A stretch of DNA of 27,679 nucleotides from a virus. The translations under genes were made by a program, and so were the position numbers. The stretch lies in IMG/VR virus record IMGVR_UViG_3300009184_004198, positions 1 to 27,679 of that record; one strand, given 5' to 3'. A model generated the notes under the pieces. That model was not told the origin of the DNA and did not search any database. It saw nothing but the letters and a program-made list of their open reading frames with translations. Positions 6,409-18,626 of the stretch are shown piece after piece (position 1 is the stretch's first letter; every line of letters begins with the position of its first letter).

Positions 6409-6670
6409 CAAACAAACCTTACAGAAGACGGATTAGCACCGTTGAAAGAAACCTTGGCTTCACCGTGGAGTAGCTACCACAACCGAAGTTTAAATGCCCC
6501 AAGGTAAGCTGTGATGGACCCTGCTCTGTGTGGCCACACAACAGGTGAACAGTAAATTATGTTCAGTCAAATCTACAACTACGGTGAACGTAGATGGTTT
6601 GTTAAAATTAAATAACCAACTTTAAAAAGGGCCCTTCCTGAAATATTGGCTCGCTGAGCCCGAGTTTGTT
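6409..6670 (+). ncRNA. Long structured RNA between tRNA-Tyr and a strong terminator
   Basis: About 260 nt without a credible CDS. Helices include GTGG-AGTAGCTA-CCAC, the palindrome TGTGTGGCCACACA (which can close as TGTGT-GGCC-ACACA), TGAACA-GTAAATTA-TGTTCA, ATCTAC...GTAGAT and GGCTC-GCT-GAGCC. It is immediately followed by an intrinsic terminator, consistent with a defined 3' end processed from the tRNA transcript. It does not show the conserved regions of RNase P RNA or tmRNA that I would expect. Confidence 0.45.
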
Positions 6671-6704
6671 AAACCCCATTCCAAAAGAGTGGGGTTTTTT
6701 ATTT
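6671..6704 (+). terminator. Intrinsic terminator of the second RNA block
   Basis: AACCCCA (6672-6678) pairs with TGGGGTT (6690-6696) over an 11-nt loop, followed by a run of T. Confidence 0.85.
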
Positions 6705-6724: not shown

Positions 6725-7042
6725 ATGAGATATCTAATCACAGAATCACAAATAGAAAAGATAGTGTTTAAGTATCTTGACAATCAGGATTTTATTAATA
6801 TGGAATATGGGACATATGAATATTTTCTTAATTCAAAAGATGATAATTATGCTCAAATTAAATTTAATACAAGCAGCCGTTGGTGTACAATTGAAAGAAA
6901 ATTAATGTTTGAAATTGCTTCTTTCTTTTCTTTAGAATACCATGATGCGATGTCACTCATTGCTAGATGGGTTGAGAGAAAAATCGGATTAGAATTTAAT
7001 ACCATTGAGACCCAATCGGATATAATTGTGTATTATTTTTAA
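6725..7042 (+). CDS. 105-residue protein with N-terminal LITE tag
   Basis: The ATG at 6725 is chosen because it gives MRYLITESQIEKIVFKYL, matching the N-terminal tag of the proteins at 3375-5114 and 10533-11795, and because it follows the late-type motif by 4 nt; the start at 6689 lies in the terminator. The remainder is mixed alpha/beta with TSSRWCTIERKLMFEIASFF and RWVERKIGLEF; no family is recognised. The tag and promoter suggest a late, perhaps virion-packaged protein (inference). Confidence 0.65.
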   Translation: MRYLITESQIEKIVFKYLDNQDFINMEYGTYEYFLNSKDDNYAQIKFNTSSRWCTIERKLMFEIASFFSLEYHDAMSLIARWVERKIGLEFNTIETQSDIIVYYF

Positions 7043-7064
7043 ATAATATTCACAACAAAACAAA

Positions 7065-7183
7065 TTACCTTATAGTTATTAATGAAACCTTGTTGCTGAG
7101 GTCCACCTGTTCTTTGAGACAGTTGAGTTGGAGAAATACCAACGAAGTGGGGTTCAATAAACATAAACAATAAAATAAGGTAA
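7065..7183 (+). promoter_or_regulatory. Structured 5' leader of the gene at 7188
   Basis: TTACCTTAT (7065-7073) pairs perfectly with ATAAGGTAA (7175-7183), which ends 4 nt before the ATG. Inside, TTATT/AATAA and ACC/GGT extend the closing helix, CCAC/GTGG closes a junction, and CTGT...ACAG and GTTGG-AGAAATA-CCAAC form two arms. This architecture would hide the ribosome entry region and looks like a regulatory leader. Part of it (7079-7094) is also exactly complementary to the 3' UTR. Confidence 0.5.
7079..7094 (+). repeat. 16-bp inverted repeat, left copy (leader)
   Basis: TTAATGAAACCTTGTT is the exact reverse complement of 8036-8051. The pair flanks the gene at 7188-8027 and both arms lie in its transcript. 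Confidence 0.85.
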
Positions 7184-7187
7184 AAAA

Positions 7188-8027
7188 ATGTATTACACAG
7201 AACTCAAGAAGTTTCCGTCGGCTCATATTACGACAGGGAAACAAAGATTAAAACAAAACGGCTCAAACGTTTATCTTAAAGATGGGGAAGAATTTGAAGT
7301 AGAAATCTTCAACCCAAAATCAAATTCAGTTTTAGCGAAAATAAAAATCAATGGAAATTACCTATCAGGTGGTGGAATTATTATCCGACCTGGTCAAAGG
7401 GTATTCTTGGAAAGATATTTGAACGAAGCAAGGAAGTTCAAATTTGAGGTGTATGAGGTTAACTCATCATCAAAGGAAGTCCAAGAAGCAATCAAAAACA
7501 ATGGTGAGGTTATCGTTGAATTTTATGATGAGAATGTTTATTTCAATAACCCAACTATAACGTTGGCAGGTACTAATAGTACTTGGACTGGTAGTATGAC
7601 CACTACAACCACAGGTAAGTATAGTATAACTTTGGGAGAGAATACTAAGTATTATAACACAAACGTTAATTTAACATCTAACAGTAATACCTTCGCAGGT
7701 GATTCAAATGCTTTTTATACAAACTATTCCGTACCTATCAATAGTGTTGATTATAACACATCACAAAACCTAAAAAAGTCTTTACAAACTGACAGGTTCA
7801 AAGAGACAGGTCGTGTTGAGAAGGGTGGTGACTCAAAACAGGAGTTCACATCTGTTAATATGGATTTCAATTCTTATCCATCATCATATTCAACTTGGAG
7901 ATTAATGCCAATGTCAGAGAAACCTGTTGAGGTGAAAGAGGTGAATGTTCTTTATTGTTCCAATTGTGGAAGTAAAAGAAAGAAAGACAAACATAAATTC
8001 TGTCCACACTGCGGAACAAAATTCTAA
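7188..8027 (+). CDS. Probable virion-surface protein with C-terminal zinc ribbon
   Basis: 279 residues. Residues about 30-90 (DGEEFEVEIFNPKSNSVLAK, then GGGIIIRPGQRVFLERYL) belong to a conserved beta-rich module that I recall from phages and giant viruses, of unknown exact function. A low-complexity Asn/Thr/Ser-rich region follows (about 125-225). The C-terminus is a zinc ribbon, C-x2-C-x13-C-x2-C (YCSNCGSK, FCPHCGTKF). Probably a structural or decoration protein. It is preceded by a structured leader, flanked by the 16-bp inverted repeat, and followed by a strong terminator. No late motif lies directly upstream, so it may be transcribed with the gene at 6725. Confidence 0.65.
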   Translation: MYYTELKKFPSAHITTGKQRLKQNGSNVYLKDGEEFEVEIFNPKSNSVLAKIKINGNYLSGGGIIIRPGQRVFLERYLNEARKFKFEVYEVNSSSKEVQEAIKNNGEVIVEFYDENVYFNNPTITLAGTNSTWTGSMTTTTTGKYSITLGENTKYYNTNVNLTSNSNTFAGDSNAFYTNYSVPINSVDYNTSQNLKKSLQTDRFKETGRVEKGGDSKQEFTSVNMDFNSYPSSYSTWRLMPMSEKPVEVKEVNVLYCSNCGSKRKKDKHKFCPHCGTKF

Positions 8028-8035
8028 AAATAAAT

Positions 8036-8051
8036 AACAAGGTTTCATTAA
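8036..8051 (+). repeat. 16-bp inverted repeat, right copy (3' UTR)
   Basis: AACAAGGTTTCATTAA lies 8 nt after the stop codon and directly abuts the terminator; exact reverse complement of 7079-7094. Confidence 0.85.
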
Positions 8052-8078
8052 GCCCCATCAATTGATGGGGTTTTTCTA
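8052..8078 (+). terminator. Intrinsic terminator
   Basis: CCCCATCA pairs with TGATGGGG, followed by TTTTT. Confidence 0.85.
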
Positions 8079-8085
8079 TTTGAAT

Positions 8086-18099: not shown

Positions 18100-18155
18100 T
18101 TAAAATTAAATTTATCAAAAGTTATAAAAGTCAAAAAAAAATAAATTAAAAAACT

Positions 18156-18542: not shown

Positions 18543-18626
18543 AAAAAGACTTTTATAACTTTTCTTAATATTTAACTAAAAAGTATGATAAATAAATTAC
18601 GAAACACATATAATTTAGTAAGAAAG

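Follow-up and report, generated by a model that had tools for sequence, protein, structure and literature searches.

The window, by which we mean the whole 27,679-nt stretch of viral DNA analyzed here (a 27.7-kb virus record), encodes six tRNA genes and a protein with a CHU_C type IX secretion domain, which together point to a Bacteroidota host. Within it, a gene for a 279-aa protein is laid out with, in order, a promoter, a 5' arm, a three-way junction, an A-rich stretch, a Shine-Dalgarno-like AATAAGG, the ATG, the stop codon, a 3' arm and a terminator (Table 1). The full arms, TTAATGAAACCTTGTT at 7079-7094 and AACAAGGTTTCATTAA at 8036-8051, are 100% complementary, lie 941 nt apart and flank the open reading frame, confirming the exact 16-nt complement that the first-pass annotation had reported in the two UTRs, together with its remark that the right arm touches the terminator (the 3' arm reaches the terminator-like hairpin). 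That annotation also considered such a match unlikely by chance. Markov resampling of both UTRs upholds this, the longest complement in 20,000 trials being 15 nt (16 nt in 0/20,000), whereas length alone does not, since 16-nt perfect inverted repeats occur seven times across the AT-rich window against 1.4 expected in resampled sequence. The significance of the arms therefore rests on their placement and conservation and not on length alone. The conserved core is 11 nt (GAAACCTTGTT with AACAAGGTTTC), and the outer TTAAT/ATTAA of the arms is not conserved among relatives.

Table 1. Coordinates of the two end-paired genes and their associated features in the window.
Feature	Position	Strand	Remarks
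Promoter	7049..7079	+	-35/-33-like TTCACA at 7049-7054; -10-like TATAGTTAT at 7071-7079; consensus scan
5' arm core GAAACCTTGTT	7084..7094	+	Conserved, or changes jointly with 3' arm; bases just upstream vary
Three-way-junction leader RNA	7097..7156	+	P1 7097-7106/7147-7156; P2 7107-7111/7118-7122; P3 7127-7131/7139-7143
Shine-Dalgarno-like AATAAGG	7174..7180	+	Complementary to 5' arm: 7 pairs including one G-U
Gene, 279 aa	7188..8027	+	ATG at 7188
3' arm core AACAAGGTTTC	8036..8046	+	Reverse complement of 5' arm; 8 nt past stop codon
Intrinsic-terminator-like hairpin	8050..8073	+	Followed by TTTTT; directly 3' of 3' arm
Second gene, 5' arm AAAAGTTATAAAAGTC	18117..18132	+	
Second end-paired gene, 128 aa	18156..18542	+	Membrane-anchor plus coiled-coil-like protein
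Second gene, 3' arm GACTTTTATAACTTTT	18548..18563	+	16-bp perfect complement to 18117-18132

A TATAnTTAT element a few bases 5' of the 5' arm recurs in relatives carrying the arm family here called A, whose 5' arm GAAACCUUGUU sits just downstream of a -10-like box, and similar TATA boxes occur in the other families. Because the bases between the -10 box and G7084 vary while the block that follows is either kept or changed jointly with the 3' arm, the 5' arm is probably the first transcribed sequence, and the promoter places the mRNA 5' end probably at or near G7084. A short upstream reading frame, ATGAAACCTTGTTGCTGA (M K P C C), was rejected because its AUG would fall at this putative start site or ahead of it and because the sequence preceding G7084 is variable. 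The first-pass annotation had further proposed that the leader folds on itself, pairing TTACCTTAT at 7065-7073 with ATAAGGTAA at 7175-7183 just before the ATG. This repeat exists, but its left half overlaps the -10-like TATAGTTAT and is missing in many relatives (L151, L178, L202, L204, L210, L277 and L281); it is most likely untranscribed promoter DNA, and the nested fold is not supported. At the other end of the gene, the terminator sequence differs among relatives while the 3' arm stays. Elsewhere in the window, right after tRNA-Tyr, the stretch 6410-6700 is conserved and probably structured, though not a tRNA, and carries hairpins and its own terminator; it is partly common to L003/L005/L006/L095 and others at 82-93% identity and includes AAAGAAACCTTG, close to the 5' arm of the 279-aa gene.

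The encoded protein has a predicted beta-sandwich N-terminal domain, a low-complexity middle and a C-terminal zinc ribbon; in the AlphaFold model, the N-terminal domain is rich in beta structure (pLDDT about 80) and the middle is disordered. One homologue (L223) carries a SHOCT domain in place of the zinc ribbon. A Foldseek search against the PDB returned no significant match and a search of GTDB genomes no homologue. In BFVD, the fold matched a SHOCT-domain protein of a marine phage (9e-18) and several uncharacterized proteins of giant and other large eukaryotic DNA viruses (1e-8 to 1e-4), among them proteins of Yasminevirus, Marseillevirus LCMAC101 and Pithovirus and ISKNV ORF098 (E 1e-8 to 3e-6). 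These predicted-fold matches suggest a protein family common to huge phages and large eukaryotic viruses.

Arms and leader in relatives

In pattern searches with pieces of the leader, all hits lay upstream of members of this gene family, and AACAAGGTTTC or a variant of it followed the stop codon at every complete locus whose downstream sequence was long enough. Because such searches keep the 5' arm constant, relatives were also sampled without bias, through alignment of the protein. Homologues of the gene occupy at least 577 viral contig loci and also occur in Lak and other huge phages. In the unbiased sample, family A carries its 3' arm 8-13 nt past the stop codon and ahead of the terminator, and its arms vary as pairs: GAAACCUUGUU/AACAAGGUUUC, GACCUUGUGG/UCACAAGGUC, AAACCUUGUGA/UCACAAGGUUU and UAACCUUGUGA/UCAUAAGGUUA. 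Across 28 distinct family-A arm pairs, 95.5% of cells are paired compared to 86.9% after shuffling, and the covariation score is 0.267 versus 0.122 for shuffled pairs (0/500); shifting one arm along the other brings it to 0.045 or less.

Beyond family A, the arms are unrelated in sequence yet complementary: UAGCUGUUCG/CGAACAGCUA in family B, GGGUGCCUUU/AAAGGCACCC in family C, AAAGCCUCGUGUGGC/GCCACACGAGGCUUU in family D, UUACGUUAACUC/GAGUUAACGUAA in family E, AUAGAGCCCUUCUA/UAGAAGGGCUCUAU in family G and UCUCACUUUGUU/AACAAAGUGAGA in L217. Eight unrelated arm families, hand-chosen for the duplex-energy and spacing comparisons, each form a duplex of 8-18 bp, with a mean of -17.6 kcal/mol for a family's own arms versus -6.2 kcal/mol with the 3' UTRs of other families (0/601 permutations as good). 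In a test that was not hand-chosen, covering 111 distinct homologue loci with 26 distinct arm segments from the unbiased sample, 5'/3' complementarity reached p<=0.05 at 88 loci (5.6 expected) and p<=0.01 at 41 (1.1 expected); of the other 23, several do show arms, but short ones or ones placed beyond the stretch that was scanned. No clear arms were seen in the Lak phages (L219-L222) or in L218, L235, L241, L243, L254 and L258. The first-pass annotation's proposal that 7079-7094 pairs with 8036-8051 as RNA across the whole gene is thus supported by compensatory changes and by wholesale arm replacement through which complementarity is kept, and comparison of relatives, where that annotation had expected the claim to fail if the arms were not conserved as a pair, found them changing together.

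In all eight families, the 5' arm lies a few bases past a TATA-type -10 box and 87-104 nt ahead of the ATG, and the 3' arm starts 6-22 nt past the stop codon in nearly all cases; in L255 it lies 35 nt past the stop, inside the terminator loop. Families D and G and some members of C have no classical terminator after the 3' arm. Counts of G-U versus A-C mismatches, meant to separate constraint on RNA from constraint on DNA, were 7 versus 5. The RNA reading relies not on these counts but on where the arms lie (the 5' arm past the -10 box, the 3' arm between stop codon and terminator), on their constant distance from the ATG at the 5' side and on the covarying leader that they enclose. Predicted folding of 11 complete mRNAs gave an arm-arm pairing probability of about 1.0, and the gene shares with 5'/3'-UTR paired mRNAs of the icaR and hbs kind a conserved complementarity between the UTRs of one message. 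Some relatives (L297, L300, L303, L304, L305 and L255) are without end arms before the terminator; these have a possible loop-loop complement between leader and terminator hairpin (e.g. GGUUUCU/AGAAAUC and UUCACGG/CCGUGAG).

The leader between the 5' arm and the ribosome-binding site (RBS) is itself conserved as a structure. Among 44 distinct leaders, 98.4% of cells are paired, both-side changes occur at 10/19 pairs and covariation is 0.454 versus 0.171 shuffled, with UUGAG and (C)GAA conserved as junction elements. Independent alignments of families B and C recover the same three-way architecture. A covariance model of the leader gave one match per contig in 11/11 family-A contigs searched, and weak matches in the contig of L293, in L217 and in a 735-kb phage record. 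In Rfam, the leader had no match even at E 5, the 3' UTR had none at gathering score and the window matches were tRNAs only, on which ground a riboswitch or other known RNA was rejected. GIY-YIG-like homing endonuclease reading frames lie upstream of the homologue in L232 and L244; the one in L232 sits directly between an intact three-way-junction leader and the coding sequence.

A second gene with paired ends

Scanning all open reading frames for end pairs revealed a second gene in the window with the same arrangement (Table 1). Its homologues carry other arm sequences, nearly all of which are complementary over 11-20 positions. A scan, likewise not hand-chosen, of five phage contigs and the window genes (292 clusters) left only these two genes standing out (P 6e-7 and 1e-6), the next cluster being at 9e-4, about chance for 292 tests. 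With only 2/292 clusters, end pairing is not a general property of these phages. In some contigs, such as L323, the 5' arm of the second gene (ACAAGGGTTC) resembles the 3' arm of the first (ACAAGGTTTC), so that cross-pairing between the two mRNAs is conceivable from the sequences there; it was not seen in the window itself.

Probable closure of the mRNA ends and alternative explanations

The co-variation of the arms, the unrelated yet complementary pairs, the leader and the two-gene scan together indicate that the mRNA most likely closes its 5' end to its 3' UTR, and on comparative sequence grounds we consider this RNA pairing between the two arms very probable. Transcription from G7084 or close to it would yield an mRNA of this gene alone, and the 5' end of this message would pair with its own 3' UTR arm beside the terminator hairpin, closing it into a loop. 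A 5' end so hidden and stacked on the terminator may slow end-dependent decay and produce a long-lived mRNA; in the window and in family C, end pairing may also pull the 5' arm off the RBS so that the complete mRNA is translated best. As a full account, a single-gene mRNA looped by its paired ends and thereby protected from decay is the explanation we lean toward. Locking the ends for stability appears the likeliest general role because paired 5' ends resist RNase E and RppH and because pairing in hbs protects that mRNA: RNase E acts poorly on circular RNAs and on RNAs with a base-paired 5' end, Bacillus subtilis RppH requires unpaired 5' nucleotides (PMC3997798), and the B. subtilis hbs mRNA is described as protected from an RNase by 14 nt of pairing between its 5' and 3' UTRs (Braun 2017, as cited in PMC7821165). 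By analogy with these systems, stabilization may be the main role of end-locking, although we regard that question as evenly balanced.

The most substantial alternative is that the arms act on translation, the 5' arm masking the start on nascent or truncated mRNA until the 3' arm, a better copy of the RBS, removes it, so that only finished messages would be translated. In the window, the 5' arm can mask the RBS (ACCUUGUU with AAUAAGGU), and in families A and C the RBS equals the 3' arm with C -> U, leaving G-U in place of G-C. When the leader is folded on its own, the arm pairs with the RBS (maximum 0.92 in the window, 0.97 in L253), and the 3' arm raises the predicted unpaired fraction of the RBS from 0.52-0.58 to 0.80 in the window and, in a second case, from 0.57-0.58 to 0.83; family C behaves as the window does. 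Of the two states that the first-pass annotation expected to expose or hide the start, this much survives as a prediction in the window, though not by way of the nested fold it had named. A possible UUCUUU/AAAGGA hairpin overlapping the 5' arm can also be read by eye in several leaders of the second gene. Duplexes of the 5' arm with its own RBS average -5.4 kcal/mol versus -3.0 kcal/mol across families (2/601 permutations as good), a signal inflated because Shine-Dalgarno-like purine runs pair with any CCUU. However, arm-RBS pairing is weak or absent in families B, E and G and in the second gene of the window, and for most of the other mRNAs tested, predicted RBS openness is almost the same with and without the 3' arm. 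RBS masking is thus not supported as a universal function, and release of the RBS is either something added locally or just one part of what the arms do. On these folding predictions, release by end pairing in the window itself is possible but somewhat doubtful, and a switch that restricts translation to finished messages is, as a general explanation, unlikely. We are similarly hesitant about a broader proposal that would combine both roles, in which a small dedicated set of self-closing huge-phage mRNAs carries a 5' anti-RBS clamp lifted only by the new 3' end, providing a check of completeness before translation and then a lock on both ends, and is kept through repeated arm replacement.

Autoregulation in trans, in which the 3' UTR (arm plus terminator) would be freed as a small RNA (sRNA) and bind the 5' ends of further mRNA copies in the manner of OppZ and CarZ (PMC7821165), is quite improbable: an arm followed by a terminator does resemble the seed and terminator of an sRNA, and sequence covariation does not distinguish cis from trans, but the 3' arm nearly always begins only 6-22 nt past the stop codon (L255, with 35 nt, departs from this), it targets the extreme 5' end and not the RBS, and predicted cis pairing probability is near 1. 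We give still less weight to the duplex as a signal for processing or termination, either as an RNase III substrate or as a long-range hairpin aiding polymerase release where there is no local terminator. The 5'/3' pairing of icaR is cut by RNase III (PMC3868564), and in families D and G a long duplex is succeeded by U-rich sequence, with no clear hairpin nearby; in families A and B, however, a complete local terminator follows right after the arm and would make such a signal redundant. Scarcely credible is the suggestion, also made in the first-pass annotation, that the arms are the terminal inverted repeats of a small mobile unit. They are inverted repeats around one gene, and the module does occur in different neighborhoods in different phages, but homology does not end at the repeats: blocks shared with relatives start at about 7041-7047 and so take in the promoter, end at about 8075-8080 where the terminator is kept (e.g. 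L096/L146), and have the arms in their interior; in L092/L097/L003, homology stops within the 3' part of the gene, at an extended C-terminus. Neither a transposase nor a precise empty site was found among the relatives compared, the distances of the arms to the -10 box, ATG and stop codon stay fixed while the arm sequences change, and a second, unrelated gene has different arms of its own.

Comparison with known systems

Closure of the mRNA by its own ends, the reading we prefer, has counterparts in bacteria, and a literature search with partial coverage returned nothing on phage mRNAs closed by 5'/3' end pairing. In S. aureus icaR, the 5' and 3' UTRs of one mRNA likewise pair next to a terminator, but there an anti-Shine-Dalgarno sequence in the 3' UTR blocks the Shine-Dalgarno (PMC3868564), whereas in the phage gene AACAAGG of the 3' arm is similar to the RBS AATAAGG, and its partner is the 5' end. 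The hok and aapA mRNAs share end-to-end pairing of a single-gene message and weaker alternative structures around the RBS as long as the 3' end is not yet synthesized, yet their end pairing holds translation off until the 3' end is trimmed (PMC6733600), while the phage pairing is predicted to leave the RBS open: predicted openness is higher in the window and family C and little changed in most others. Nor is the product a small hydrophobic toxin, being a 279-aa zinc-ribbon protein in the window and 250-350 aa across the family. OppZ and CarZ of V. cholerae resemble the phage arms in that 3' UTR sequence is complementary to its own transcript, but these 3'-UTR-derived sRNAs act in trans after release by RNase E and inhibit initiation (PMC7821165), whereas the phage arms require no release.

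In hbs, too, the 5' and 3' UTRs of one mRNA pair, although in the account given in PMC7821165 this is a host gene of one lineage whose 3' UTR is reported not to be conserved among relatives; according to the same review, conservation of functional 3' UTRs is often lacking among close relatives. In the phage gene, by contrast, the pairing is kept across huge phages while its arms have been replaced many times, and the arm lies at the probable extreme 5' end, on a three-way-junction leader that is itself a new conserved leader RNA. The bacterial 5'/3'-UTR pairings known from the cited literature are few and single cases; here, one huge-phage gene keeps the complementarity of its ends across many lineages in at least eight unrelated arm families, and a second gene does likewise. 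These arm families constitute a natural mutational series on whether closing the ends stabilizes or licenses bacterial-type mRNAs.
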